From Arctopsyche grandis (Eukaryota > Arthropoda > Insecta > Trichoptera > Hydropsychidae): DNA of 64,000 nt. The translations under genes were made by a program, and so were the position numbers. The stretch is from positions 13,630,001 to 13,694,000 of the forward strand of contig NC_135360.1 in NCBI RefSeq assembly GCF_051622035.1, written 5' to 3'. Positions 1,294 through 39,000 of the stretch are shown in pieces (within the stretch, counting starts at the first letter, position 1; each line of letters opens with the position of its first letter). The notes below the pieces were generated by a model. That model ran no database searches and was not told the origin of the DNA. It saw nothing but the letters and a program-made list of their open reading frames with translations.

Positions 1294-1398
1294 ACTCGGC
1301 AATTGACCGAATGCGATGCGACACGTGGTCTCGTACTTTTTCGCACATTCGTATTTTTATGGTCATTCGTATCTCAGTCATACCTCTAATAACTAATA

Positions 1399-3549
1399 AT
1401 GGCTAACAGTGTTCAAGACATTTTAACTATTCCGTTTTCAAATAGAAGTTTTGAGATAAAATTAAAAATAATTAAAGATGGGAAACCGTGTCCGTCTCTT
1501 CCAAATTTATCCAGTTTGCATAAAGAAAAAACAAAAGTTTACACTAGACATTTTTGCGTTTCAAATTATAAAAAATTCGAATGGATTACAGGCTGTGAAA
1601 TTCGATCCAAACTTTTCTGCTGGCCATGTTTATTGTTCTCCAAAGATATTAATGTGTGGAACAAAGAAGGATTTGCTGATCTCAACCATTTGACAGCAGC
1701 ACTGAAGAAACACGAAGGATCGCAGGCACACGTTCAATCATTTCATTCCATACAAATGTTTGGCAAACAACGAATCGACGTATTAATTGACAGTCAACGT
1801 AAAGCCGAAATAAGTCGACATAATGAACAAGTAAATAAAAATAGAGATGTTTTAAAACGAATTATTAACGCAATAATCTATCTAGGAAAACAAGAACTGT
1901 CCCTGCGAGGTCACGACGAGTCATGTAATTCCGTAAACAAAGGCAATTACATTGAATATCTAAATGCTCTTCGAGAATATGATTCTGTTTTAGATACTCA
2001 TTTAAATACTGCTACTACCTTTCGTGGTACTTCTCCAAGTATACAAAATGACATAATCGAAGCAATCGCTCATGTTATTAAAGTTCATATAAAAAATGAA
2101 GTAGAGTCAGCAAGTTTTGTTGCTATTATTCTCGATGAAACTTCAGATATAATGACAAAATCACAGCTCTCAACAGTTTTACGTTTTGTATGTAAAGGCA
2201 ATGTACATGAACGGTTTATTAGTTTTACAGACGTTAGTGCTGATAAAACATCTAATGGTCTATTCCGTCACGTGGTGAACATAGTTGAAGAATTTAAAAT
2301 TCAAGACAAATCGGTTGGACAGACTTATGATGGAGCAAGTGTAATGAGTGGACACGTAAATGGTTTGCAATCCAAAGTCCTCAATGCTTATCCTTTTGCT
2401 CTTTTTACACACTGTTATGCTCATGTATTGAATTTAGTATTGCAGCAAGGTCTTTCTGATATTAAAGAAAGTAAATCATTTTTTCAAACTTTAAATGGAT
2501 TGTCTACATACTTTTCAAAATCTTCCAAAAGAGTATTCGCTTTACAGGAATTTGTGACAAAAAGACTTCCCTCTGTAGCACCCACAAGGTGGAATTTTAC
2601 ATCTCGTTTAAGTAGCACAGTACAACAATACAGAAGTCAATTTACAGATTTTTTTCGACATGTTATAGAAAATTGTGAATTATGGGACACAGATACTGTT
2701 ATAAAAGCACGAGGGTTTTTAGGCTTTTTAGAGGATTTTCAAACAATTAAACTTCTTCAATTTTTTTCAAAACTGTTTGGAATAACTGATGTTTTGTATA
2801 ACATTCTTCAATCTAAATCTTCGGACGTTTTATATTGTTGTAAAAAAATTAATGATGTTTTGCAGCAACTGAAATACGAAAGGGATAATAATTTTGAAAT
2901 GTTATGGAATAATTATTTAAATGAAAAAAATGATGATCATGATCGTAGGCCACAAAGATTAAAAAATTATTCAGAAGTAGAAGATAAAACTTCATTTCGT
3001 CAATTATATTTCAAAATAGTTGATAGCATAATCGCACAAGTCGAATGTAGATATTCTTCACTTTCCAAATTAGAATATTTTCACCTTCTTTGTAATGATA
3101 AATATGACGAATATAAAGAAAATTTTCCAAATGTTTTAATTAATAAATTAAAAGATTTTTATGGATCACTGTTTGATTATATTCGATTGAAAAACGAACT
3201 CATTGTGCTATATTCCAGCTCTGAATTTTCAGAGAAACCTGTTCATGAATTAATACAATTCATGACAAAAAATAACCTCGAATCTGGTTTTAAAGAGGTG
3301 TTTAAGCTGGGAGAATTAATATTAACGATACCAAGCAGTACAGCTTCAGCAGAACGTTCTTTTTCGGCGCTGAAAAGAATAAAAACTTGCTATAGAGGTA
3401 CGCAAGGTCAAGATAGATTATGTGGCCTTAGCTTAATTTCAATAGAAAAAAAGTTATTGGTGGAATTAAAACAGAAAGACACATTCTATGCAGACGTGAT
3501 TGAAAAGTTTATGTCTCAGAAACGTCGCATTGAACTTATGTATAAATAA
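1399..3549 (+). CDS. hAT transposase, TTF-type zinc finger plus RNase H-like core (716 aa)
   Basis: This is the cut-and-paste transposase of the surrounding element. The N-terminal part (about residues 45-115) has the TTF-type zinc-finger layout: FCVSNYKKF, then CEIRSKLFCWPCLLFS, then a His-rich helix. The catalytic core shows the expected acidic positions: LDETSD (about residue 248), the QTYDGAS motif, the CYAHVLNLV block after it, and a C-terminal dimerisation segment with IPSSTASAERSFSALKRI (about residue 650), which contains the catalytic Glu. This architecture is that of ZMYM1-like/DUF4371 hAT proteins. The ATG at 1399 is the first in frame, 480 bp inside the element. There is no stop or frameshift, and the protein ends 120 bp before the right terminus. 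Function is inferred from motifs; activity is untested. Confidence 0.92.
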   Translation: MANSVQDILTIPFSNRSFEIKLKIIKDGKPCPSLPNLSSLHKEKTKVYTRHFCVSNYKKFEWITGCEIRSKLFCWPCLLFSKDINVWNKEGFADLNHLTAALKKHEGSQAHVQSFHSIQMFGKQRIDVLIDSQRKAEISRHNEQVNKNRDVLKRIINAIIYLGKQELSLRGHDESCNSVNKGNYIEYLNALREYDSVLDTHLNTATTFRGTSPSIQNDIIEAIAHVIKVHIKNEVESASFVAIILDETSDIMTKSQLSTVLRFVCKGNVHERFISFTDVSADKTSNGLFRHVVNIVEEFKIQDKSVGQTYDGASVMSGHVNGLQSKVLNAYPFALFTHCYAHVLNLVLQQGLSDIKESKSFFQTLNGLSTYFSKSSKRVFALQEFVTKRLPSVAPTRWNFTSRLSSTVQQYRSQFTDFFRHVIENCELWDTDTVIKARGFLGFLEDFQTIKLLQFFSKLFGITDVLYNILQSKSSDVLYCCKKINDVLQQLKYERDNNFEMLWNNYLNEKNDDHDRRPQRLKNYSEVEDKTSFRQLYFKIVDSIIAQVECRYSSLSKLEYFHLLCNDKYDEYKENFPNVLINKLKDFYGSLFDYIRLKNELIVLYSSSEFSEKPVHELIQFMTKNNLESGFKEVFKLGELILTIPSSTASAERSFSALKRIKTCYRGTQGQDRLCGLSLISIEKKLLVELKQKDTFYADVIEKFMSQKRRIELMYK

Positions 3550-8500: not shown

Positions 8501-9902
8501 GCAAAGATATGAATCATAAACCAGATACTGTTAAAAAAAATGATCGTAATGTGTTATTAATTGGGACCGAGTTAAACATGACTGAGCCACCAATTGGAAT
8601 TGCGCTACCGAGCGATCAAGATTCAACAGAAGGAGAAGGAGAGTCTGATGACATAGGTTAATAAAGTGAAATTAGAAAATTCTCAAATGAGAGACAAACA
8701 CATCTTAAGATTGTATTTAATTAGTATTTTTTTTGCAGAGGAAGAAGACATCAGTGCCTTGACACCATCTTTACTATTGTACCGTGCAGCAGGAGCACAC
8801 AATTTGCCTGTAATGTGTAGAGCTTTTGCCTTGCGTGCTGATCCTCATATACCGCACCCACAACCCGCTCATCATGGTCGCACTCCGCTTCATGCAGCCG
8901 TCATTAGTGTATGTTTTATTTCGTAGAGTAAATAAAAAAATTCAATTACATTTATACTAATTTGTTGTCAATTTCAGGGTTCCGTGATGGCTTGTTCTTA
9001 TCTTCTGATGAATGGCTCTCGCATTAATGTACAAGATTCTTTGGGGAAAACACCCTTGCATTTAGCTACAGAATCAGGGAACACTGCACAGGTACATATT
9101 GTATTAATTTTTTATTTATCTATGTATATTACAATAATGGGGACCGAAATTTGGATTTTCGAATAAGCATACATACTTAGTTGTAATACAAATTATTGTT
9201 TTCGTGAAAAAATATATACAGTGGAACCTTGAATTACGAGTGCTTCGAAATACGACCAATATTTTGACGTGATATACGAGCTGTACGCATTCATACAATA
9301 ATAAGGAGGTGATCTTGATAGAAGTTGAGAAGTAAATCATCAAGAAGCACCAACAAGGTATTCGAGTGGCTGACATCGTAAGATTTTATAATAAATTACA
9401 TTACGAGCATGTTTCCGGAGCCAACGCTCGTAAATCGAGGTTCCCCTGTATGTAGATAAAATCGTGGATTGGCCACATCTGATTTTTTTCTGTGATTATG
9501 TATTCTTAATTTATTTTATTTTTAGGTTTGCTTACTGCTTCGGTACAAAGCTGATCAAAACATTAAAGATAATGATGGAAATACTCCATTAGATATTGCG
9601 GTTAACAATGCTAATGCAGATATTGTAACATTGTTAGTGCTTGTTAAAATATCGTAATAGGTAAATTTAAAATAACTTTTTGTTACTCGTACTTTTACTT
9701 TTACAGATTGCGATTGACCAAATTGAATGATGAAATGAAAGAGTCTGACATGGGGGCTCTAGGTGATGAAACGTATAATGAAGTATTTCGGGATTATACC
9801 CAAATGGCGCATTCGCATCCAGAAAGACTTATAAGATCTAATCACAGGGATAGTCTTAATTGTGAAAATTTACCAAGTAGTGAGAATGTATCGAATAAAT
9901 AA
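5548..9902 (+). CDS. CenB1A: ACAP-type ArfGAP (BAR, PH, ArfGAP, ankyrin), 865 aa
   Basis: This gene encodes an Arf6-type GTPase-activating protein acting at endosomal and plasma membranes. Coding exons: 5548-5600, 5877-5993, 6067-6240, 6321-6549, 6616-6711, 6796-7052, 7169-7285, 7376-7567, 7648-7754, 7841-8027, 8108-8364, 8453-8656, 8739-8908, 8978-9091, 9526-9653, 9707-9902. All phases join and the total is divisible by three. The N-terminus ([14 protein letters not shown]) is the ACAP BAR start. The BAR domain covers residues 1-240 and the PH domain about 278-375 ([18 protein letters not shown]). The ArfGAP domain spans about 413-520, with a CX2CX16CX2C zinc site and the arginine finger in PRWASINLG. 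An acidic/basic linker follows, then ankyrin repeats at about 680-800. Exon 6 ends at a GC donor. The exon 15 donor (9654) is the only phase-compatible site and adds about six residues (VLVKIS) relative to relatives. Symbol is by family resemblance. Confidence 0.95.
7053..7168 (+). other. GC-AG intron of ACAP
   Basis: The junction reads TATAG|GCAAGT, the consensus for the rare GC donor class, and ends TTTCATAG|GAAG. Only this donor keeps the frame across to the PH-domain strand (VYR then KRTGEEQ). The nearby GTGAAA at 7056 would shift the frame. Confidence 0.85.
9217..9450. mobile_element. Tigger/pogo-type MITE in ACAP intron 14
   Basis: The element is 9219-9448 (230 bp), flanked by TA on each side. 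Ends are inverted: CAGTGGAACCTTGAATTACG at the left, CAGGGGAACCTCGATTTACG on the minus strand at the right. The interior reads like the first helix-turn-helix of a Tigger transposase ([24 protein letters not shown]) with a stop, so it is an internally deleted derivative. Confidence 0.85.
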
Positions 9903-11061
9903 TAGTAAATATCATAATTGTCAAAAATTTCCAACTCAGAGTCCAACTCAAATAATATTAAGTTGCTCCTGTGATCTTAACAATCTCACTTATAAATTTT
10001 GTAATTTGATAATTATATATTTTTGTGTTGTTTTAGTATTATATATTATTGTATAATCACAATGAATTTTTTTTTAGAGTATTTATCCTGTGAATAGGGT
10101 ACTGAAGTATGCATCTTTGTATATGCATTTGTTGGAACTATTGCCTTTTGAAGGGTTCGGTTAATTATAAATAAAAACTTACATGTAGAAGTTTGAAAAA
10201 CTACTTACTAATTTTAGCTTTCGTCTCACGACATCGATCTGTTGGAAATCAAAAACTGTTTGCATGTAATAAATCTTGAATACTACAATACTTTAAGATT
10301 TATAATAAATTATTAGCATGTAATGACTTACCTTAAAGTTTTATAATCAAAAATTAATAACTTGTGTATGTTTCTATCATTATGCCAGACTCTTTTTGTA
10401 TCAAATTACAATAAATGTCAAAATACTCGTTACGCATGCTCTCTGTCTTGCCGTTTTTAAAAAATTATTTTTGATGCTTTTACATACAGTATTTTGGCTT
10501 GACTATATCGAATCTATCATTATGTACACATGTATGTACTAAGCACATATTTTTTAACATTCCAAATTTTGTATAATATGTAAAATTATACAAACATTGC
10601 ACTTTCCAAAGCAAAAACTTCTAACATTTGCCAAATGTAATGAATAACTGTAAATGTTTATTTATGTTATTTGTAATATTATTATACCATGTGTTTATGA
10701 ATTTATTGCAAAATAAAAATATTAGCCGTATTTAGATGTTTTGCATTGCTTATCAATTATCTATCTTATGAAATCTTAATTTATAAATTGAAATGAAATC
10801 AAACACAGATCCTCTATTGTGCATTTTTTTATTTATTTCAAGAACTGTCTTATACATACAAGGCTGACAATATACAATACGGTTTTTGCCATTTTTTAAT
10901 ATTAACAAATAATATTTTTACAATATGTAATTTTAAAAGTAGTATATTACAATATAATCATATAATACAAATAAGTTTACACTTAATCCATTGTGTCTTA
11001 TTTAAATTAAATTAATTCAATTAGACAATTGTGGAAGTCTGTACACTAATACTACGCGATT
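9903..11061 (+). other. ACAP 3' region
   Basis: AT-rich sequence without ORFs. AATAAA occurs at 10170-10175 and at 10712-10717; the second, followed by GT/T-rich sequence, is the more likely end of the ACAP transcript. The part after about 10750 may be the 3' side of the convergent minus-strand piggyBac-derived gene. Confidence 0.5.
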
Positions 11062-12783
11062 TCAGTAAAACTGTTTTGTATGGTAAGCATGAAAACAGTC
11101 GCCTACATGTAAAGGTACTTTACAATGTCCGCACATTCGACCCGTATCTTTCCGTTTATGATGTGACGCGCACACTCTGCATCGTTTTCTGACCTGAGAT
11201 TTAGTATAGATACTAAAAATTTTGACCATGGTGTGTTTATTCATATCGCCCGAAAGTCTGTCTGGTGGATCTTCGCGAGGAACGCGTGCAGAGTATACTG
11301 GAACAGTTCTATTAATTTCATCAATGCTTTTCGTCGATAAATCATCGTTTAAATAGCTTTGATTCAGCCACGCTCTAGCAATGCCCAACACAAACTCATC
11401 ATATCTCATTTTATTGTTCGAATTCACATGGACATATATGTGGAAAGCATTAAACATGGCGCAATTGAAGAGGTGCATCACTAGTTTTCTCGTACAGTCT
11501 TTAGTTTTGCGGCTGATAGGTGGAAACGCAGCATTAGGATTACCATAAGGTCGTTTAATATACTTGTTAAAGTCTATTAATGATTTTGGTTTTGGAATAC
11601 ATGCCATTCCGGGAAGTTCTTTCAGTGTGTATTGCATTTCTGAACCGTGGACGGTAGAAATCATTTGTAGATTATTTTTTCCAACGCCTTTCCAGACTTG
11701 CAGCAGTATCGGACCCCTGTGTCGAAATTTTGATTGATACAATTCTAAGTTGGGATTCTTCAAGGCATCTGGAAAACCTTGATTTTTTCTAATGGTTCCA
11801 CACACTCCGATTTTCATGTCGTGTAACTTTTTCGCCAACTTAACACTAGTGTAATAATTATGCATATAAACATGATGCCATAAGCGTGAACTACAATATA
11901 AGGTTGCCAAAATAGAATTTTCTGATTTGATTTCGTCAGCTGTAAACAACTTCATGTTACATATGTATCCCGTATCTGCTTCACACAACATTCTTGAATG
12001 GATGCCTGGTTTGTTAACAGCATTTGGATTATAAACTTTAAAATTTAATTTCCCTCGCCAAGGAACTACACTTTCTTGCAGAACTAGATCTTGTTTTGGT
12101 TTGTAAACGGTTTGAAATTTCTTCGAGAAATAATTTATTATTTTTCGAATTCTAAACAAAATGTTTGGATTTTCACATTCATCGTCATTATTGTCAAAAC
12201 TTAAATAACGTAACATTTGTAAAAACCTATTTCGGCTCATTGTTCTCGGAAAAATAGAAGTCTTGATCAACGGGTCTGTCGACCAATAATCACCTATTTT
12301 CTTTTTCCTAACTTGGCCCATTATTATTAAAAGCCCAAAAAATTGTTTTAATTCTTCCACAGTAACGTCACATCCCCAAGGCGAAGATTTATCAGCAACT
12401 TTATATTTGTGAGCATTCAGTGCGTGATATTTATTTGTCTCCCGTGTTATCTTTTCGAATAGATCGCGTCCAAAAAATAATGAAATAACATCTGCAACAC
12501 TCTCTGGGTCCTCGGGATGTATTTTAACACCGGGAGTTCCTTGAAAATGCTCGTTCGTTCTATTTAATTCAGAAGTGCTCCAATTTTTATCAGCGGAGGA
12601 TTCTTCCACATCCGACGAAGGAAAAGTCGGGTCCGAAGAAAAATTGGCAGTCGATTCTATGTCGCTAATTTCTTCATATTTAATCAAATTTACGTCATGA
12701 TAATTTTCTTCAAACTCACTGGAATTATCTGAAGAAACAATTTCAGATCCTTCTTCAAAAAAAATGTCTTCTTCACAATCCAT
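11062..12783 (-). CDS. piggyBac-derived protein with lost catalytic residues (PGBD4-like), 573 aa
   Basis: An uninterrupted minus-strand frame with the full piggyBac domain order. It starts with an acidic N-terminus (MDCEEDIFFEEGSE), followed by the DDE_Tnp_1_7 fold (VEELKQFFGLLIIMG, PRTMSRNRFLQMLRYL, ADTGYICNMKLFTA). It ends in a cysteine-rich domain (CRVCASH, then CGHCKVPLHVGDCFHAYH). The three positions normally held by catalytic Asp are replaced: the usual IDES is LQES (before VVPWRGK), the usual DNFYTS is HNYYTS, and the GGVDxxDQ motif after FNKYI is RPYGNPN. No flanking TTAA with inverted CCC/GGG ends was found. The frame is open upstream to 12864. I chose the ATG at 12783 because piggyBac proteins begin with an acidic segment. 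This looks like either a dead copy that kept its frame by chance or a domesticated gene. Confidence 0.85.
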   Translation of the reverse strand: MDCEEDIFFEEGSEIVSSDNSSEFEENYHDVNLIKYEEISDIESTANFSSDPTFPSSDVEESSADKNWSTSELNRTNEHFQGTPGVKIHPEDPESVADVISLFFGRDLFEKITRETNKYHALNAHKYKVADKSSPWGCDVTVEELKQFFGLLIIMGQVRKKKIGDYWSTDPLIKTSIFPRTMSRNRFLQMLRYLSFDNNDDECENPNILFRIRKIINYFSKKFQTVYKPKQDLVLQESVVPWRGKLNFKVYNPNAVNKPGIHSRMLCEADTGYICNMKLFTADEIKSENSILATLYCSSRLWHHVYMHNYYTSVKLAKKLHDMKIGVCGTIRKNQGFPDALKNPNLELYQSKFRHRGPILLQVWKGVGKNNLQMISTVHGSEMQYTLKELPGMACIPKPKSLIDFNKYIKRPYGNPNAAFPPISRKTKDCTRKLVMHLFNCAMFNAFHIYVHVNSNNKMRYDEFVLGIARAWLNQSYLNDDLSTKSIDEINRTVPVYSARVPREDPPDRLSGDMNKHTMVKIFSIYTKSQVRKRCRVCASHHKRKDTGRMCGHCKVPLHVGDCFHAYHTKQFY

Positions 12784-12954
12784 AATAATATTTATATCAA
12801 AAAACGGAAAAGCATGAAGAGTGACAGAAGTCAAGCTGCACGATATGTTGACATCTCGGTACATCTGTGGTCCAAACAATTCACTAAGTCGTCCTTAAGC
12901 CGTACAAATGATCTTATTTTTAATTCTACCCACAGACGAACAACTTGGTTGGTC

Positions 12955-15900
12955 AACATTGTTCTTCTTCTTGTTAATGCCTTGTCCGCATCCGGACGTT
13001 GGCGACCACCTCGTCGATTATTTGAATATATCCGCATCGGTCTTCAGCGGCTCGGAACAGCTCTTCGGCGCTCATATCGGTCCACATGCGCATGTTTCGA
13101 AGCCAAGATAACTTTTTCCTGCCAATCCATTTTTTTCCTTCTATTTTCCCCATGGTTATCAAACGGAGAAATTCGTATTTTGGACCCCGTATCATGTGTC
13201 CGAGGTACTCCATCTTTCTCCGCTTGATGACAGAAACAAGTTCCCTGCCTCTCCCCATCATGCCGAGGACAGCTTCGTTTGATATCTTTTTGGTCCACGG
13301 AATCTTCAGCATACGCCTATAGACCCACATCTCAAAAGCTTCAATGCGGCTGATCATCTTGGTTTTCAGAGTCCACGTCTCACATCCGTGTAGTAATACT
13401 GTCCAGACGTAGCTCTTCGCGAATCTCAACCGCGTATGAAGATTGAGATGCTTGTTTGTAAGGGCCGCCTTCATTTTTACAAATGCTGTTCTAGCCATCT
13501 CGATGCGGATTTTTAGATCTTCATCTGGGTCCATCTCTTCATTCAGCCAGGTACCCAGGTATTTGAATCTTTTTACTCTTTCTATCACCTCTCCATCCAA
13601 GGTTAGATTCCCGGTGTCTGTTTGCATTCTATCTACTATCATAAATTTTGTTTTCTTTAGATTTATGCGCAGACCTCTTCGATTGCTTTCTTGATGTACA
13701 CGGTCTAGAGATCTTTGCAGGTCTGCTAAATTTTCAGCGACTAGTGCCGTGTCATCAGCATATCTTATATTGGTGATCGTCTCGCCGCCCACCTTGATGC
13801 CCTCCGCCTCTTGGAGAGCATCGTGGAAGATGGATTCGGTGTAGGTGTTAAAAAGAGTAGGTGATAGGATGCATCCTTGCCTGACGCCCCGTTCTATAGG
13901 AATCTCATCAGTGAATTGATCATCGACACGTACTACTGCAGTCTGATTCCAATAAATATTTCGTAGCAATCTGACATCTCTGTCATCCAGGCCAATATTT
14001 TTTAATGTTTCCATCAGGCGAGCGTGTTGGACACGGTCAAAGGCCTTTTCAAAGTCTATAAAGCAGATGTACACAGGTTTACGGACTTCTCTGCATCTTT
14101 GGAGTAGTGTTTTCATACAGAAAAGGGCCTCTCGGGTACCCAAACCTTGTCTGAACCCAAACTGCTCTCTGCTAATCGCCTCTTCACACCGTGAGTAAAT
14201 TCTGCCCTGTATTATCTTTAGTAGGATCTTCAATGTGTGACTCATTAGGCTAATTATTCTGAAGTCGCTACACGTCCTCGCGTTACTCTTTTTGGGCAAC
14301 GGGATAAATATGGATTGTAACCAATCGCTAGGTACTTCGCCTGATAAATATATTTTATTATAGAGTTTTGTTAGATTTTCTATGTTATCGTCGTCCAATA
14401 ACTTGAGAAATTCGGCAGGAATAAGATCCGGTCCAGTAGCTTTCCGACTCTTTGCTAGTTTTATAGCATGTTCCACTTCGGATTTCAATATATATGGTCC
14501 CGTTTCTGGATCTTCAATATGCCCTCCGGTTTCTCTATTGTCTTTAAAGAGCAATTTTGTGTACTCGGTCCATTCTGATTTCTTCTCATCCATATTTAAA
14601 ATGATTTTTCCATCTTTATTCCTAAGGAGTATGAAATCTTTTTTTCTGAATGATCCTGTTGCTTCTTTTAGTTTTTTATGTACGTTAAATTCGTCGTGTT
14701 TTTCTTGTAATTTTTCAATTTCGTTACATTTATTTTCCATCCATTTTTCTTTGATTTCTTTAATTTTCCTTTGAATTTGGCGGTGAATATTTTTATATTG
14801 TGTTGGATTATTATGTTTGTGTTTTCTACGTTCTTCCATTAAATGTATAATTTCATCCGTCATCCAAGGTTGTTTTTTATTAATTATTTGATTTGTTTCA
14901 AGAAACTTTTTCCCAGATTGGGTCATTGCTGATTTCATACCTTCCCACTTTAAGTTTACATTACTATTTTCTTCAATACATTTTTGTTTAAAATTTTTAT
15001 TGAGATCTTTTGTAAATTGTTCGTGGATCGTAAGATTTTTAAGCAGCTCTAAATCCAATCTTGGTTTAGGTTTTGATGCTCTTAAAATCTTTTTCAGTCT
15101 TATCTTCAATTTCCCACAAAGTAGATTATGATCGGATGCCACGTCTGCACCAGGGTAGGTTTTCACCGATTTTATACTATTTTTAAATCTACTGTTTATC
15201 AAAATAAAGTCAATTTGGTTTCGCACAATATTATCAGGACAGTCCATTGGGGATTTCCATGTGTATAATCTTCTTTTAGGTAGCTTAAAGAAAGTATTCA
15301 AGATAACATACTGCTCTTCCTGGCAAAACTGAACTAGTCTGTCTCCTCTCTCATTTCTTTCTCCAAGTCCGAAGCGACCAGTTATACCCATTGTTTCTTC
15401 GTCTCCAACTTTGGCGTTGAAATCTCCCATTATAATGTTAACATCATGTTTTTTCGTATATGTCATCAATTCTTTGATTTGTTGATAAAATTCTTCAATC
15501 TCATTTTCTTCTTTATCAAAAGTGGGGGCATACACTTGTATTATGTTAACATTTATAGGTTTTCCTGCTAATTGTATCATCATGACTCGTTCAGATAACG
15601 GAATAAAGTTTCTCACACTTTTACTGATGTCGTCTTCCAGAATCACAGCAACACCATTCTTATGAGTGCCGTCAAGCGATCCCGAGTAGTAAGTCGTATA
15701 TCCATTGCAATGCATCGTTTTTCCTGCTCCAGGCCATCTAGCTTCGCTTATGCCGAGCATCTGTATTTGGTTTTTTTTCATTTCTATTTGCAGATTTTCA
15801 ATTTTACCTGCTTGATACATGGTCCTAACGTTCCATGTACCAATTTTTCGTATGTTCACCACTTTGAGTCCGGGGATTCTTAGCACCCCTGTCCCATTGA

Positions 15901-16215
15901 AGGGACGCCGGAGACTCGGGGCCGTGGTTTTAGGTTTTCTCTTCATGGTGGTTATACTAGGGATATGAGAGCACAGTAGTTTTCCCCAAACCTTCTGCTC
16001 CGCAGAATTCAAACCGATTGAGTGGCTGCCACGTCGCTTTGAATCTTCCATCTTTTGCCGTTTTAGTATATTGCATATACTTCCGCCGTGGATGGTACTG
16101 ACAGAGCTGCTGCCCACTGCCAGGGAATTTTTTTATGGAGTTTCCTTCTCTATGAAAGGTGTTACGGTACCTTTCAAAACCGGGTTGTGCTTTTGTTATT
16201 GTTATTAACATTGTT
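12955..16215 (-). mobile_element. RTE-type LINE, near full length, with 9-bp target duplication
   Basis: The element is about 12964-16206 (3243 bp). On the minus strand its 3' end follows the stop codon after only about ten bases, with an AAG-repeat tail. The nonamer AACAATGTT follows directly (plus 12955-12963) and the same nonamer precedes the 5' end (plus 16207-16215). A short 3' region with a simple-repeat tail is usual in RTE elements. The exact 5' boundary is inferred from the duplication. The insertion sits just upstream of the piggyBac-derived gene. Confidence 0.8.
12974..16117 (-). CDS. LINE ORF: APE endonuclease and reverse transcriptase (RTE clade)
   Basis: A single open frame of about 1050 residues. 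The N-terminal half is an apurinic-type endonuclease with its motifs in order: GTWNVRT (about residue 93), ISEARW, MGDFNAKVG (about 230), NQIDFILI, ASDHNLL. The C-terminal half is a reverse transcriptase with FIDFEKAFD (about 684), RQGCILSP and the catalytic YADDTALV (about 785). A tail follows with LHGCETW and GRKKLSWLRN, as seen in BovB/CFDP2-like RTE proteins. No frameshift or stop was seen, so the copy may be active or very recent. The frame is open upstream of the first ATG; the true start may be MEDSKRRG or MKRKPKTT, or translation may begin at a non-ATG codon. Confidence 0.92.
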   Translation of the reverse strand: MGSSSVSTIHGGSICNILKRQKMEDSKRRGSHSIGLNSAEQKVWGKLLCSHIPSITTMKRKPKTTAPSLRRPFNGTGVLRIPGLKVVNIRKIGTWNVRTMYQAGKIENLQIEMKKNQIQMLGISEARWPGAGKTMHCNGYTTYYSGSLDGTHKNGVAVILEDDISKSVRNFIPLSERVMMIQLAGKPINVNIIQVYAPTFDKEENEIEEFYQQIKELMTYTKKHDVNIIMGDFNAKVGDEETMGITGRFGLGERNERGDRLVQFCQEEQYVILNTFFKLPKRRLYTWKSPMDCPDNIVRNQIDFILINSRFKNSIKSVKTYPGADVASDHNLLCGKLKIRLKKILRASKPKPRLDLELLKNLTIHEQFTKDLNKNFKQKCIEENSNVNLKWEGMKSAMTQSGKKFLETNQIINKKQPWMTDEIIHLMEERRKHKHNNPTQYKNIHRQIQRKIKEIKEKWMENKCNEIEKLQEKHDEFNVHKKLKEATGSFRKKDFILLRNKDGKIILNMDEKKSEWTEYTKLLFKDNRETGGHIEDPETGPYILKSEVEHAIKLAKSRKATGPDLIPAEFLKLLDDDNIENLTKLYNKIYLSGEVPSDWLQSIFIPLPKKSNARTCSDFRIISLMSHTLKILLKIIQGRIYSRCEEAISREQFGFRQGLGTREALFCMKTLLQRCREVRKPVYICFIDFEKAFDRVQHARLMETLKNIGLDDRDVRLLRNIYWNQTAVVRVDDQFTDEIPIERGVRQGCILSPTLFNTYTESIFHDALQEAEGIKVGGETITNIRYADDTALVAENLADLQRSLDRVHQESNRRGLRINLKKTKFMIVDRMQTDTGNLTLDGEVIERVKRFKYLGTWLNEEMDPDEDLKIRIEMARTAFVKMKAALTNKHLNLHTRLRFAKSYVWTVLLHGCETWTLKTKMISRIEAFEMWVYRRMLKIPWTKKISNEAVLGMMGRGRELVSVIKRRKMEYLGHMIRGPKYEFLRLITMGKIEGKKWIGRKKLSWLRNMRMWTDMSAEELFRAAEDRCGYIQIIDEVVANVRMRTRH

Positions 16216-16458
16216 GATCAACATCAATTTCGATTTATTTTCGATTTCTATTTCGATCAGTCAACTTGTGCTTTCTGGCGAGCATTGTACGAATATTTTT
16301 CAAAGAACAAAAAAAAATCCGGAATGATGTCACACCTACATTGGTACAAATATTTCCTAAGAGACTTGGCACTGATGATTGATACATTGGAAGAAATTTA
16401 TCTTTTATCGAATGCGTTCCAGTCCAGAACTCAAAATCTTGCTAAATCGAATCAATAA
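16216..16458 (+). pseudogene. hAT transposase fragment (KIAA1586/ZMYM-like)
   Basis: A short plus-strand frame reads FWRALYEYFSKNKKKSG, then LRDLALMIDTLEEIYLLSNA and FQSRTQNLAKSNQ, then a stop. The spacing of DLALM.DTLEEL..LS...Q.R matches an internal segment of hAT-derived KIAA1586-like proteins. The left part has been cut by the LINE insertion and nothing recognisable follows. It is a relic. Confidence 0.6.
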
Positions 16459-17164
16459 ATTTTAAGAACTACATATCTCTATTTTTGACTAATTGAAAGA
16501 AAATCTTGGCTGTTGAAACACAAGTTGATGACATAGAATAAACCGATTCCTACAAGAATATTGATATTGAAGACAACATAGTTTATGGAAATCTCATTCG
16601 AGTAAAGTGAATCGACAGAATAGTATAAAACATGACATTTATTTATTTAAGAATACTTGGGAAAGATGACAAAGACAATGGACCCAGGGGGTTTGATAAT
16701 ACATACTGTAGTACAGAAATACAAACATCAAATAAAAAAATAAAAATGAAAAACAAATAAAATATTCTCAAAAGAGAAAATACAAAATATAAACTTTACT
16801 TAAAGAGGGAAAAACTACATAAACCCAAATAACTTTTACAAAATGTTTTTTTAAAGGTTTAAGTTACTAGAAGTTATGTAAACTCGCATTCGAGTGACTT
16901 TAACAAATCAAAATAATTTAACGTTAACTTATATGAAAATTTACGAATTTATTTATAAGAATGAATGTATGCAATATAAATAAATAATTTTGTAATGTAT
17001 GAAATATATAAATTTGAAAAAAAATTTGGAGGGGGGTATGTCTGCCAATGCGCGAGGTTATTATAATTTTAGCAACACATAACTGTGCCCACAATGCTAA
17101 TGCCTCAATCATCTTCCCAAATTTAGTGCATTATTTTGGTAAAAGTGAACGAAGCAGTTATATT
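16459..17164. other. Non-coding AT-rich spacer
   Basis: No supportable gene or element boundary. There are A-rich and T-rich runs and scattered TACATA words. Confidence 0.4.
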
Positions 17165-17500
17165 GGGTTCCGTGATTATCGCTCGCGAAAAAGTCACTAA
17201 AATCCCTATAACGCAGAGCCACGCAACCTCTGGATATTCGCGGCAAACATTGTTTACGACTCGTAGAGTTTGTCAGCTACGTACATACATACATACATAT
17301 GTACTTCATTGGCAGTCGCTAACTATTCCGTAAATACATATGTAGGTGACAAAATGCCAACATCGGTTTTCTCCCTCACACGCGTTAGATCGAAGTGCTG
17401 CTCGCGGAACAAATAATGCTGGGGCACTCGCCTTACGATTTTCATGGCAAAAATCGTCTTTTGGGTGATCGCAATGTGAGTAATAATCCAATTACCGTTA
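17165..17500 (+). repeat. Interspersed repeat family, copy 1 (split)
   Basis: The left part (17165-17225) holds AAAAAGTCACTAAAATCCCT and the right part (17437-17500) holds AATCGTCTTTTGGGTGATCG followed by AATCCAATTACCG. The same two blocks occur adjacent to each other, inverted, at 19925-20150, and in reduced form at 52209-52342. About 210 bp of unrelated DNA separates the blocks here. The ends are loosely inverted (GGTGATTATT and GGTAATTGGATTATT), suggesting a MITE. Confidence 0.6.
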
Positions 17501-19924
17501 TATTGGTGTGAGTGATTGTTATATTGGTATGTGGCGAGTTTTGAGTGGCGGTAGCTACTCGATCGATGAACAGTGTCGTGTCACGTCAGTTCGGGTGTGG
17601 TCGCCTTGTGACTGGTCTACTGTCTTTCGACTGTCTGTTTTCTCCTGTGTTCAGCATTTTTGCTGATCCGCTTTCCTTCACCAATAAAATCCTTTACTTT
17701 GCTTTGTGAAATTTATTATCCTGCAATTCTAATATACGTTCTACGTGATAATATTTTCCAACTGCGCAATCAATATTACGACAGTGACGTGTCCTATTGA
17801 TCGCCAATGCGACGTTGCCCTCGATTCATCGCTTTCTATGAACAATGCAAATAATCTTTTATCTTTTAATTTTAATTTGCCTATCAAAAATAAATTTTGA
17901 TTGGCATTGTAGGTATACATTTTTCTTTTTTTTTCTTGTATACATAAGTACGATGCATATTACGTGTGCACTTCCGTTAATTCGTTCACAGTTATACAAG
18001 TGTAATTCTAAGAATATACATATTTATATTTCTCGCTTTATTACATATCATTTGTTTCTGTTATTATGAATATTTATTTTTAGGTTTAAATAAAAACTAA
18101 TGAAAATTTGTATCAGTGGTACAAAATTTGTTTCCAGGATTTTTAAGTGATGACAAGTTGGCTATCAGTATTGATGGTTACTGATACAAGACAAGTTATT
18201 ATATTTGGAAAAATTATAGTGTTTTTTTACAAACCAGAAGTTACAAAAATGATTGAGACTCTTTTTACTATAATATTCAGATCATCAAACTCAAGAGAAA
18301 AGAGAATGATATCTCCATATGCAAACGAAAACTGAATAAATAAATAAATAGAAACAATTGTAATCATGTAGATGTCCCCGAAAGAAATTTTGATGATTCT
18401 ATTACAGAGAATATAATTTGATGATATATCAGGAAGAAGAAATGTGATATGCAAGCACATATTTTTAATGTTCAATATAGGTAAGTAAGACTGAAATTAG
18501 TGGTTCAACAAAATACTTTAACAATAATAAATTATCTTATTAAAAATATCGGTTGCTATATTGATCATATTTTTCTTGACGTTAAAAATTGGTTGTGCAG
18601 TTCGGTGTTGAAAAGTTTTTTGAATAAGCCAGCTGTATGGACCGGTTTGTTAATGAAGCTATTGTTGCTATGATTGCGGCTATAGTCATATAAAGTTGTA
18701 GCAAATATGTCCATGAAAAAGTTATGGATATTGGTAAATAGATATAATTCTACGATTCTCTGCTACAATTTTTGTTTTAAGTACAATTAGGCTTAAGTGA
18801 GTTAAAAAAGTCAACTCATAAAGTGGGTAAACGTGTTTGGCAGCCAAACAGTTTGTGTGTGACATCGAGTGTGTGAACTTCATACTATGTTTACTATCTG
18901 TGAATATTCATTTACAAACTAGGCATGATGTCTCACAATGTTGGGATTCGTCCCTCGAAATCAATGTTCGCCATAGGTTCACGAATATTGATATTTTTGA
19001 TTTTCACTCGCTGTGCATAGGAGATAGGTTCTGTAAATGGATAATTGTGCTCATTCGCTAATAGAGGTCAGAAACAAAAGAATGAAAGAATGTGGGCATC
19101 GAGCTGTTTATACAATAAAATCGTCATTCATGAAATGGACTTTTTTTAATTCATCTTGTCACGGAAGCATCGATTTGGGATGAATTAATGGAATACGGTG
19201 TAGTCGGCTTGGCCCTGTAATCAAAAACAAATTTATCAGTTTAATTCTGAAGAATTAAATTTGTTTAATGCTGTAAATTTGAGCAAAACTATCACATTAG
19301 GGAAAAATATGGTAATAACGGATATTTTCCCATGTAACGCAGTGTTTTTTTTCTTTTTGTCTCAGCGTTTTTTGTTTCAAACGAATATTATATATAATAT
19401 AATTTGAATATAATCTTTTCCAATAAAAAATTTGAAAAGAAGTGAGTTCTGGCTCTTTTTTTTTCAAAAATAAGCCCTGGATAATACATTACATTGACTT
19501 AATTTTAATTTATCGATTTTTAAATTAAGGAATACAATTTCTGATACATTAGGTATATGTGATGTATACAATATTTATACACACAACACAGCACCAGAGA
19601 CCGAATTTGGTAATCGGAGATCGCAGGCGTAAAATTTAAAACGTCTAATTTACAAAGAGGTATTCAATTTAATAATAACAATAGACGCGAATCCTTTTCG
19701 TGGCTTTCGGTTTAATTTTGTGTGCATGTCAACGAATAGCGTATTTTAGGCCTAGGATCCATTGTTGAACAAAGGATTTCGCTATCGCGGCGAAACTAAT
19801 TCCTCGCTACGTTGGTATTGGTGGGTTGTATTTTTTCAAAATTAGTAATGCGAACTATTCAATTTAAACTAACGAGTAATTTTTCAATCCAACTTTCGCG
19901 GTCCCGAGCAAAATAACAACATTA
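17501..19924. other. Long spacer without recognisable genes
   Basis: Only short frames are present, none with family resemblance. The first 250 bp contains an AATAAA (about 17683) in a mixed-composition segment that could be an LTR or UTR remnant, but no paired copy was found. The remainder is AT-rich. Confidence 0.35.
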
Positions 19925-33082: not shown

Positions 33083-36000
33083 ATGGATCCGAGTAATATA
33101 GATTATGACACCAAATTCAAAGAAATGCAAGGGTATCTACCATTTTTGGAAGATCTCATAAATCGTCTAGAAAAAGCATCCGTCAGTGAATCTATCAAGG
33201 GGATTCAGTTGCCCAAAATAAAGTCATTAAAATCTTTATTATGTGACGTCGATAAAAGGTTAGATAAATTAATTTTTATATCTCATTTTTATTCGTATTA
33301 TTTTATTTTATTGTATATTTTATAATCATTTTAACTGAGATTCAATTTTTTTTTACTTAAAATTGTTTTAGAATGAAAATTGAAAATCTCTTACGATGTG
33401 AACAAGTTTTAATAAAACTCAAAAGCAAAATTGCCAAGGTATGATCTGAATAATTAATTAAATATTAGCCTTGAATCTATGTATTTTAAAATAACAATAG
33501 TCTAATTATTTTCAGGATTCTGTAAATTGTAGCACTGAAGAAATTATTCAAAAAAACTCCGTATCCGAAACTCATAACAACTTATTAAATACAGAATTTG
33601 CAGCAAAAACAAGTATGAATTTTTATAAAGAATCAGCAGATGAAAAAATTCAAAATAAAAAAGAAAGTGAGAATATTATCTTACAGCCAACTACCGATAG
33701 TGATCTTCAAATGTGTCGTATTAAGTTAAAAGAATTGACAAAATCTTCACAGTCAAATTTACCTCAAAATTCTGTAAATATTAAATCATTTGAAAAAGAA
33801 ATCCAAATTGTAACAGAAGCGTATTTAAATAGTCAAAAGAATGAACAGAAAGACTTCTCAGAAATAATATCAAAATCGGTTAACAGTATTTCCTTAAAAT
33901 CAAACAGTATATGTAGTAACATATCAGAGTGCAGTAATTCTAGTTCTGACAAAATTTCAAGTAAATATCTAAAGCAAAATTCTCTTTTGAATGATATAAT
34001 AAGAAAAGATATTTCAGTTTCTCCATATAGAAGGATTTCAAAAGACGATAAAAAAAAAAAAGCATATAGTCCAGATGAGAAAAGATATCGCAACAAATCC
34101 AAAAAATCGGAAAAATCGCATTTTAATGATAAGCGAAATAACTATCGCCGAGATTTAAGAAGTCGCTCAAAATCGAAAGATTCGCGCAGTCCGCAAAGGG
34201 CAAACGCACGTGAAAAGTATTTGGAAGACAAAAATAAAGATGTAACCAAGAAAATAAAAAATAAATCCAAACGTGATTTGTTTTCATCTCATACAAATAG
34301 CTCAGGAGAAAAAAAGAAATTGGACAATCCTGAAAATGAAAATGATCCAGATTCTAAAAGTAAATTGAATGAAATTATAACTTTGCATAATTTAAAAAAA
34401 TTGAGGAAGCAATTGCTAAAACAACTAGCGATAGATAGTGAAATAACTAATTTGTGGGATGCTGTTAAAGAACCCAAAGAAATTGAAAGTGTTTCAAAAG
34501 AAAAGGATTTAGAAAAAATCGACAAAAAAATAAATGAAGAGATGCAGAATAACAAGTTATCTAACAATGTGCTTGATGTGTTTGAAAAAATTCAAACTAT
34601 AGAAAATGAATCAAAAATCAAAGTTATTGAAACACAGTTAAAAGATTCAAACAATGAATCACAAGCAAAAATTGAAACAGAGTTAAAAGACACGAACAAG
34701 GTAAAAACCAGCGATCTGATTATTGATCCCACTATTTTTGAAGCTGAAAAAACTAATAAAAAGGTAAATGAATCGCAGTGTGAGAATTTAACAAAACTGC
34801 CAAATATTGTATTATGTGAAGGTACTAGTGAAATATCAACTAATGATAAAAATGGACAGAGTTATTCCTTTTCAAATGATATTACAAATATTTCAGTGAC
34901 TGAACTTGATGTTATTGTTTCCAAAACGTTATCTTCTGAGCTTAAAGAAAGTTCGAACACGATTGACGAATTTACAAAAAAGTATTTGGCAGATGCTATT
35001 AAGCTAAAAGATTTAGTAACCACAGACCAAGATGCTTCACCTGATGTGGATAGTACATATATTGAAAAATCTGTGAGTCATGATGTCATTTCAGAAAATA
35101 TCGATGAAAACAAAAGCGATTCCAAATTTTTGTCAAAGGCGAATACTATGCAAACAAAATTCGAACAAGATGTATTAGATGCCTTGATAAATGAAATTGC
35201 TGAGTCACCTACGATATTTCAAAATGTAGTACAAAAAATAGATAATGAAATGAATGGTAATTTATCTTCTAAAAAGCCTATTTCAGATACAGATATCAGT
35301 AATCAATTACAAAAAACAAGAAGAATCAGCTTAGAAAAATATAAAGAAAAATTACATTTCCCAGCTGCCCAGAGGGAAGTTGATTTGAAAGACTTTAATA
35401 TTAAATACAAAAATCAAGTAGAAATTTTAAATAGAGTCTTAACACCTAAAGAAATTGAAAGATTTGATTCAGTTATTGAAAGTACTGTTGAAGACTCCAT
35501 TGCGGATTGTGATCAAATTTTGGATGCTAAAAAAAAGACTACAGATTCTAATTTTGAACAAGCGTCAGAAGATATTGGACCTGAGTCTCCAGATTCTGCT
35601 AGTAGTTTCCAATACATAGAAATAAATTCTCCTGTACATCCTGGAGAAAATCGCACAAAAATGAACAGAGAAGCAATTCTTGAAAAATCTGAAATCTACA
35701 CTAATATTGCTTCTAATTCTGATCAATCAACTTCATATAAGGAAAGTAACTATTCCCAACCGTTGATGTCTCCAATGCATTGGTCGTCTGATGCACCATT
35801 TAATACTAATGATTATTCGCCAATTTTGACAACAAGGGATTTTGTGGAGTTCCAAATGAGGAACCAATTTCCAAATTATCATAGTCAAACTAAAGATACT
35901 CCTAATGTTTTTCCTTCTACTAATGATTGTCTTATTACTATTCAGCCTACATTCAAATCTATACCAACACAATTAGGTGCTAATTCTTCTAAAAATAAAG

Positions 36001-39000
36001 TATTGGACGAATCTAGAACTTTGATATATCCACCACTAACAGCCAGGTTTAAAGTAGATTTCCCTGTTAGTGCAAATTATAGAGGGAAAAATCCAAAACC
36101 TCTCCTCGGTAAAACTTTTGTAAAAAAATCACTGAATTCAAATAAATTTGATGAAATACCTTGTTCACGTTCAAAAAATACAAATTTTGAAACCGAAAAG
36201 AATATTACTGAGATAAAAAGTAGTATTTTTCATAAATCGGACATAGAAAATGAGGATTCAAAAATTAGCAAAAATCCTTATCTAAAGCTGGCAAATATAA
36301 ATGAATTGATGGATGAAAGGAAAAAATCAAATACTGTCGGAGGTGTAGAATCGTGCGATTCACTTATAGTCCAATCTAATAAATTGGAATCTATAGCAAA
36401 TTGTGTATCAAAAATTGAATCCCAAGATCTGACATCTTTAATTCTGCTGAATAGAGAAGAAAAAATAGAAGCCCATATCAATGATACTATAAATAAAAAA
36501 CCATTGCTACCAATTCCCAAATCACCCTTACTAATGGAACCTGCCAATTTATCACCCAGATTTTTGAATACCAATTTCGACAAATGCTATTCAAATAATT
36601 CCAATATTTCTGTAGAAAATCAGAATTCTCCTAATTCATTTCAAATGAAATCTATTTCTGTTCAAGATCCAAGATTGCGGAATAGATTTAAAGATACTTT
36701 TCAAAACGAGGATTCAAATCAAACAAATAATTTCGAAAATAATACAATAAAACAAACACTTTTAAGTAGTTTTACAAAATCTCCAAGTAACTTTCCGAAA
36801 ATAAATGTGGCGTCTAATGATCCCAGGATTAAACGTTTGAAGGAAAAAACCAGCTGTAATTTATCAAATGATGATGATGACGACTCTAGTTCAAGAAGGC
36901 GTAGAAGGCGACAGAGACGATCCAGGTCGAGAGAAAAATATCGGGAACGGGACAGAAGTAGGCCAAAAAATAATTCTGATAGAATTAAACCGTTGCCTTT
37001 TAAGATTCCAAAAATCAAAAAAGATGTAGAGGAAAACAAAGAAATTAAGGCAAAATCTAGCTCAAAACACAATGAAGTTTCTTCACGGAAGAAAAATTTA
37101 AATGATGAAATGGAACTCGAAAAAACTAAAAATTTAAACAAAAATGTTGTTATAATTGATGAAACTGATACATTTGTTGTATATGATGAGATGGTTACGT
37201 ATGATAAAAAAAGTAAAGAAACAAATGATTTAAAACCATCAAAAGATTCCTCTGCTAAGAAAAATATTCAAAAACAAAAAAACCACGGTGGAGTATCTCA
37301 GAAAGAATTGGCTTTGAATAAATTTGAAGATAAAAATGAAATTGCCCTTCCAAAAATAATAACCAAAGAGAACATTTCTGATAAAGATAATGTTTCCTCC
37401 GAGCATCATAAATTGTCAGAAAATGAAACTAAAAATATATCTTTACGTGTTATGGCAAATCAAGAAGAAAGTGTTTTGATAAAAAATGATAAGGAAACTG
37501 ATAAAAGTGATGATTCATTTAAAATTCATGTTAATGACAAAGCAAATGAAAATACAGACTTGTCTACACCTTCGTATAATAAATTTGAAGATTCTTTACC
37601 GAGTGAAATATTTGTTAAAAAGGAAATTATCCATGATAAAAAAATAATGATTTGTGAAAATGACAATAGTGTTGAAAATTTAGAAAACCCAGATTCAAAT
37701 GAAAATTTAAAAAACATTGCTATAAAAAAAACAATTGAAAAGTCTGTAAATAAAATGAATAAAAACTGTGAAAGTAATCCTAGTACAAAAAATGATACTA
37801 CAGACAGAATATTGGATATAAATACTGATAACTCATTTGAAGAGGTGATTAACACTAATTTAAAACAATCAGGAAATACAGGCGAGTCAGTATTGCTAGA
37901 AGACGATTCCAAAAAATTGAGAACTGATTTATCAAAAGATAATGTGAACAATTTGGAATCTGAACCAATTCCATCATCAACATTAACAGATGAAAAATTG
38001 GATAAAGATGTAAATTTCAGTATTTCGTGTAGTAACGAAAAGCAAGAATTAGAATGTAAACCTGAAAATGTGTCAGTTCAGGAAAACAACCAAGACCTTT
38101 TTAGTAGTTTGGTGTCTGTATTGGAAGATAAAAAAAAATTGTTGGAAATGTTAACGCTTCTTTCACAGAAAAGTGAAAACATTCCCCAAAAAATTTTGAA
38201 AAAACTAGAATTACTGACAGAAATCGACTCTGAAGATGATTCTGACAATAAAGATACACTAGACTCGGAAAATTCTCTACTGAGTAGTAATTCCCAGGAA
38301 CAAACGCCAGGAACCGTCACTGTAGCAAAATTCAATGAGGAAAATTCATTTAAAAATGTATTTTGTTCTTCAAAAGAAGAAACACCAAACACGAAAACAA
38401 ATGACTACCATGCAAATAATCTTAGAACGAAAGGTAGTAGGTCAAAAAGTAAAGCAAGAAACGAGGTTGAATTACTTCGTGATGCACTTCCAGAAATTTT
38501 TATAAATAAGGGTGGTCTCAATCCTGCTGGTATCAGGATGTGTAGAATAATGAAAGAATTTAACAGTGACAATGTTGAAGAGGAGGATTCTAGACGGACT
38601 ACTAGGCAAAGTTTAGTAAAGAAAGATTCTGTGAAGCAAAATACAAAAACTGAACCAAAAAAAGTAGCAAAACCAACTAAATCGTTGAATGATAATGATC
38701 AAATATTAGTTATGCAAAAAGAACCAATTATACTTTTGGAAAAAACTTGCATTAATATAATTTCATCAGGAAATGAAACAAAAGATGAAAGTAAAAATGA
38801 TTCACCTCTTGCATCAAAACATAATCTTTTAACAGACGAAAAGGCTAACAATAGCGAGGTCAATTATTTGAAGATTAAACCTTGTCCCAAATCAAAAAAA
38901 AAGAATTACATAAATGATTTGAATATTACGTTACCAACGAATGATAATAATACGGTTGAGAAAATTGATGAAAACGTAAAAGAAACTATTTCCTCTTCAA

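Follow-up and report, generated by a model that had tools for sequence, protein, structure and literature searches.

A piggyBat-type transposase frame without its catalytic triad in Arctopsyche grandis, a probable domesticated gene

According to excerpts of the papers cited here, the active site of piggyBat, the transposase of Myotis lucifugus, is formed by D237, D309 and D413, the ligands of its cysteine-rich domain (CRD) are described as Cys3His1 and Cys2His2, and PGBD2-4 are thought to have a CRD of the same type (PMC11707139). In Trichoplusia ni piggyBac, D268, D346 and D447 are each required for excision, as the authors conclude (PMC2533014), and a beetle survey found the three catalytic residues highly conserved across all six clades (PMC12732532). 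Catalytically dead piggyBac-derived genes have already been described in mammals and ciliates; PGBD3 retains specific DNA binding and the Paramecium PgmLs are essential for development (PMC6143343). Here we analyse a piggyBac-derived open reading frame (ORF) in Arctopsyche grandis (Trichoptera). It lies in a stretch of 64,000 nucleotides, called the window below (contig NC_135360.1, positions 13,630,001 to 13,694,000). With moderate confidence, we interpret the ORF as a piggyBat-type transposase gene exapted by the host, whose product would now be a non-catalytic, sequence-specific nuclear DNA-binding factor.

The ORF (Table 1) has no internal stops between its ATG at 12783 and its stop codon at 11062-11064. 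Its reading frame stays free of stops upstream as far as 12894, and the ATG has an A at -3 and a G at +4. The Pfam profile PF13843 matches at 222.5 bits against a cut-off of 22.4 and covers profile positions 7-349 of 349, while the zf-Tnp_2 match at the C-terminus (20.2 bits) lies under its cut-off of 24. Among solved structures, phmmer places piggyBat (9c0f) at the top, over residues 49-572 with an E value of 1.2e-113. The second match is the transposase entry 6x67 (E 3.7e-22), which we take to be Trichoplusia ni piggyBac. A tree built from 25 piggyBac domains places the ORF in the piggyBat-type clade of its own genome. Judged by these similarities, the ORF is by descent a member of the piggyBac superfamily, in its piggyBat-type branch. 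A previous annotation of this DNA, made from the letters alone (the sequence-only reading), had described a full-length frame with its fold motifs, and the uninterrupted 573 residues with a nearly complete domain match bear this out.

Table 1. Positions of the ORF, its parts and its surroundings in the window
Feature	Position	Strand	Remarks
piggyBac (piggyBat-type) transposase-derived ORF	11062..12783	-	573 codons plus stop, frame without intron
DDE_Tnp_1_7 (PF13843) domain	11443..12483	-	residues 101-447; coordinates calculated from the ORF
Catalytic columns	Q236 (12076-12078), H308 (11860-11862), P412 (11548-11550)	-	in the DDE_Tnp_1_7 domain
C-terminal cysteine-rich zinc motif	11065..11181	-	residues 535-573; ligands inferred by alignment with piggyBat
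Native 5' flank between ATG and retrotransposon	12784..12963	-	includes the target-site duplication
3' flank	9903..11061	.	scanned for a transposon end, none found
Young non-LTR retrotransposon	12964..16206, ends approximate	-	endonuclease and reverse transcriptase ORF 12974-16132

The same reading had held that all catalytic aspartates are replaced, and the alignments agree. Aligned with piggyBat and with the transposases of its own genome, the ORF carries Q236, H308 and P412 in the catalytic columns; the three-aspartate (DDD) triad that marks an active piggyBac transposon is absent. The motifs read as had been reported, with LQES for IDES, HNYYTS for DNYYTS and KRPYGNPN in place of GGVDxxDQ. 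An N occupies the position of the fourth conserved aspartate, and one codon is missing in the stretch around the third motif. Because the triad is lost and the T. ni piggyBac aspartates are each needed, catalysis by the predicted protein is very unlikely. One might argue for an altered, still active nuclease working through other acidic residues, since E237, listed as invariant, is kept beside the lost first aspartate. However, all three catalytic columns are changed, and D-to-E and D-to-N mutants at catalytic positions were impaired in T. ni piggyBac, where two donor plasmids differed in level and D268E excised in one of two assays (PMC2533014, in excerpt). We regard such a nuclease as barely credible.

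With 11 other transposases as reference, the ORF deviates at 10 of 18 otherwise invariant columns, and each of the 11 others at 0-3 of 8-11. The ten are K211R, D236Q, K255A, Y280F, D308H, V372L, Y405F, M409I, a missing V and D412P; several of them are conservative, and five are the three catalytic columns plus two neighbours of the third. Among columns invariant in its own clade, the highest share of deviations falls in residues 400-449 (12/19), and from residue 550 onward none of ten is altered. We asked whether a compensated frameshift had scrambled the third motif and rejected this, as the places of the shift differ with the reference used (the own-genome transposases L010, L019 and L022). 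Read in the shifted frame, the sequence matched L010 at 3 more positions, L019 at 6 more and L022 at 1 more; among 300 simulated in-frame deletions on L010, a gain of at least 3 arose in 49 and of at least 6 in 4, so that the gain against L019 is the one unusual value among the three references.

The C-terminal zinc motif, in turn, is complete. It reads C-x2-C-x2-H-x9-C-x2-C-x4-H-x3-C-x4-H, with five Cys and three His in the piggyBat spacing, as the sequence-only reading had suggested in calling the cysteine domain intact. All eight putative ligands are kept (C535, C538, H541, C551, C554, H559, C563 and H568), and we infer that they are the same Cys3His1 and Cys2His2 ligands as in piggyBat. 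Of four families checked in this genome, only L022 has the whole motif; L010 and L019 lack the first His, and the C-terminus of L001 does not match the pattern.

The whole assembly (475.7 Mb, 189 contigs) was searched, with protein and DNA searches scoring the best candidates only; PF13843 gave 116 scored places of 605 candidates. With the ORF protein as query, the 80 matches listed comprise the ORF itself at 100% and, as next full-length relatives, eight near-identical open copies at 44% (L010-L017), followed by the family L019-L021 at 42% and then others. Partial matches of at least 100 residues, mostly to broken copies, reach 52%. At the DNA level, four other places match at 65-67% over about 400 bases (the best 67% over about 410), besides short matches of 77% over 78 bases and of 34-base words at 97-100% in two places. 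No second copy of the ORF was found in the assembly among the best candidates scored by protein and DNA searches; the presence of more than one copy, another mark of an active piggyBac transposon, is not observed. No relative of the ORF turned up in collections of phages, viral contigs or contigs of prokaryote genomes.

Both of these closest families (44% and 42%) carry DDD, and TTAACAC ends were read in six copies, on both sides of L010, L011, L012, L019 and L020 and on one side of L013; the 44% relatives (L010-L017) look mobile on this evidence. Further copies with terminal inverted repeats and aspartates were the finding that the sequence-only reading had named as speaking against it; the families that have both are different ones, at most 44% identical over full length. 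Elsewhere in the assembly, thirteen piggyBac copies with open frames of 541-566 residues tie for the top score (the L001 family, e.g. G000:C1:24310416-24311486). They carry DDD, six of eight fetched copies encode identical proteins, and the family is probably mobile at present or was so until very recently. Three equal-scoring piggyBac fragments (L023-L025, G000:C12:669022-722695) follow each other at a spacing of 26,417 bases, a regularity that points either to tandem repetition of a 26.4-kb unit or to an effect of the assembly.

Transposon ends are not seen at the ORF locus either, as had been claimed from the letters. TTAACAC occurs 9 times in the window against 15.1 in shuffles, and TTAACACNNNGGATNC with at most 3 mismatches 47 times against 62.6, i.e. 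both are rarer than expected. Two end-like matches with 3 mismatches in the flanks (10682 on the minus strand and 16205 on the plus strand) both point away from the gene, and no end-like match faces the ORF on either side. The best TTAA-anchored pair between the 3' flank (9903-11061) and the upstream DNA (12784-13000 or 16100-18000) reaches 11/16, in AT-rich DNA. TTAA-flanked terminal inverted repeats, which mark an active piggyBac transposon, were not found here. With the triad lost and neither ends nor, among the best candidates scored, a further copy found, the ORF locus is not an active transposon. A long frame with a zinc motif, with no ends and at a single locus, as found here, is the combination expected of a domesticated piggyBac-derived (PGBD-like) gene.

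The ORF might instead be a lone relic that never served the host, left by a transposon family now extinct, with its frame kept by chance during drift. We compared the ORF with broken copies and with a neutral model. Among the matches to the ORF protein, 25 relatives that are broken or fragmentary were used to read the four aspartate columns. L024, L025, L032-L034, L044, L056, L060-L063 and L065 were left out as duplicates or overlaps, L031 as a truncated member of the L010 family, and the intact families were set aside together with L018. The count includes L058, whose family is more distant (identity about 26-30%). An aspartate is present in 64 of 73 readable cells, although single cells are uncertain, as queries disagree at some alignment ends. 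An aspartate column is readable in 23 of the 25, and all 23 keep at least one D, the worst being L047 with one of four. Broken relatives mostly lose the frame before the aspartates. The neutral model multiplies the probability of no stop by that of losing the aspartate codons at 11 divergences from 0.002 to 0.5, for a GC content of 33% and a twofold transition bias. With substitutions only, the highest joint probability is 1.8e-6 when four aspartates are lost and 2.3e-5 when three are; if 0.1 indels per substitution are added, the maxima are 6.5e-8 and 1.7e-6. An open frame together with aspartate loss is very unlikely under neutral decay as modelled. According to the model, the frame was maintained during the loss of the aspartates; this says nothing on whether it is maintained today. 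Retention beyond neutral drift, as in a domesticated gene, is indicated by the model and the broken-copy control, as a calculation rather than a measured ratio of nonsynonymous to synonymous rates (dN/dS).

Codon-position rates were tried as a test of selection and dropped. The ratio of changes at positions 1 and 2 to those at position 3 is 0.45 on the ORF branch (bootstrap 0.32-0.61), and broken copies give the same ratios. Such ratios are uninformative, presumably because most of each branch predates inactivation.

Several observations weigh against a host gene. The terminal branch of the ORF is 0.92, compared with 0.33 for L010, its nearest relative. In its own clade (three full relatives) it deviates at 65 of 202 invariant columns, the others at 41/178, 16/153 and 30/167, and is therefore more changed overall than they are; residues 500-549 contribute 4 of 15. 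The codon-position ratio lies at 0.29-0.74 in 15 of 16 broken or fragmentary relatives, one being unreadable. The GC content at third codon positions (GC3) is 0.32 in the ORF, close to the 0.33-0.39 of transposons, and 0.22-0.23 in three large window ORFs that we regarded as host exons. A single-sequence AlphaFold2 model is unusable (mean predicted local distance difference test score, pLDDT, 34.9). Sites are treated as independent in the neutral model, and the counts in broken relatives overstate independent events because L026, L027 and L029 are near-identical. Lastly, a long interspersed nuclear element (LINE), the retrotransposon of Table 1, lies upstream at a distance of about 170 bp from the ATG and may very recently have separated the promoter from the ORF.

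The long branch, a codon-position ratio not below that of most broken relatives, the transposon-like GC3 and the restriction to a single genome would all suit a lone relic. Even so, the neutral joint probability of at most 1.8e-6 (four aspartates) or 2.3e-5 (three) is small even against 116 scored places, broken relatives mostly lose the frame ahead of the aspartates, and the last ten invariant columns are unaltered. This makes a relic, in our judgement, distinctly unlikely. The LINE raises another alternative, that of a formerly exapted gene now dying, whose frame was selected during aspartate loss and whose promoter was recently removed or displaced in this individual. The LINE carries a frame of 1052 residues with endonuclease and reverse transcriptase, and its target-site duplication of 9 bp, AACATTGTT, is perfect (12955-12963 and 16207-16215). 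Its insertion appears to be very recent, because both ends match other places at 99-100% (at least 39 for the 3' end and at least 39 for the 5' end). However, the frame is still entirely open, and the remaining 170 bp may contain the core promoter; we give a dying gene some weight but hold it to be unlikely. An exapted host gene thus remains our preferred reading. The sequence-only reading had reached it from the frame, the triad loss and the absence of ends; that pattern is real and is strengthened by the own-genome controls, and a host function is its most probable explanation.

The 5' flank contains, about 150 bp before the ATG, a 30-bp word (12932-12961) with three further occurrences in the genome, one exact, one with 1 mismatch and one with 2; its reversed control has 0 matches in 475.7 Mb. 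It was rejected as a transposon end, since in the two of these three places that were read the shared flank is at most about 10 bases and the TTAA offset is inconsistent. Elsewhere in the window there are an ankyrin-repeat exon (8936-9166), an ORF of 2575 residues (33501-41228) whose sole match, a zinc finger, is under the cut-off, and an open hAT-like transposase frame of 718 residues (1393-3549) with DUF4371 and a hAT dimerisation domain.

If the ORF is indeed an exapted gene, its protein may work as follows. The dimer core and the CRD would still fold like a piggyBac dimer, and the protein would enter the nucleus and bind DNA via the CRD, with an RNase H-like site unable to hold metal or to cut. 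It could then act as a regulatory or chromatin protein on scattered piggyBac-end-like sites, or as a competitor on the ends of related live piggyBac families. We consider a DNA-binding factor acting in regulation or chromatin its most probable function.

Incomplete triads are not confined to the ORF. In 20 further piggyBac domains, selected among the 116 places largely because their open frames are long, the first three aspartates are kept in 14, as in the references L001, L010, L019 and L022, and not all kept in six (L083, L089, L092, L093, L094 and L095), with all three gone only in L094. Among the long open frames, L092 (G000:C3:27323001-27324083; 602 residues) keeps only the first D, L093 (G000:C6:23794461-23795555; 603 residues) only the second, and L094 (G000:C5:32214185-32215273; 555 residues) none. 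All three are further exaptation candidates. In the tree, the four frames labelled for incomplete triads (the ORF, L092, L093 and L094) require three label changes, which suggests that this genome has seen the triad lost from a kept frame more than once. L093 groups with L094 as its sister (99/98); the branches of the four frames are long, and their placement is less sure. It is tempting to propose a host-kept anti-piggyBac factor, whose zinc domain and dimer core would occupy the ends of live families and block their movement, the repeated triad losses being recruited silencers. We consider this more specific proposal unlikely. In this genome, near-identical and probably mobile piggyBac families coexist with a dead relative from their clade that has kept its frame, so that restraint of transposons by such relatives can be tested directly.

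Among known systems, piggyBat is the closest solved relative of the ORF and has the same cysteine motif, but it has D237, D309 and D413 as well as transposon ends (PMC11707139), while the ORF has no D at these positions and no ends were found at its locus. The Paramecium proteins PgmL1, 2, 3 and 5 resemble the ORF in having no conserved D, and the PgmLs, mostly without it, form a complex with the active Pgm (PMC6143343, in excerpt). By analogy, the ORF protein could be a non-catalytic partner that dimerises with an active piggyBac transposase of the same genome, where intact DDD families of its clade exist; at 44% identity to the nearest of them, heterodimers are uncertain, and we find a partner of this kind very improbable. 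Unlike the ORF, PgmL1-5 are partners in the programmed DNA elimination of a ciliate. We know of no such process in this animal. Xenopus Kobuta is likewise of piggyBac type, lacks most catalytic aspartates and is called inactive, but keeps D346 as a rule (PMC2533014, in excerpt); the ORF keeps none. In the open-licence literature, among the titles and beginnings of abstracts listed, we found no report of an insect gene of this dead-piggyBac kind, which is weak evidence of absence. Mammalian PGBD1 and PGBD2, together with PGBD3 in its CSB fusion, are domesticated piggyBac-derived genes in which, as in the ORF, the triad is not intact (PMC6143343). In summary, the features compared here make the ORF a probable addition to the domesticated piggyBac genes that have lost catalysis, alongside mammalian PGBD1, PGBD2 and PGBD3 and those of ciliates.
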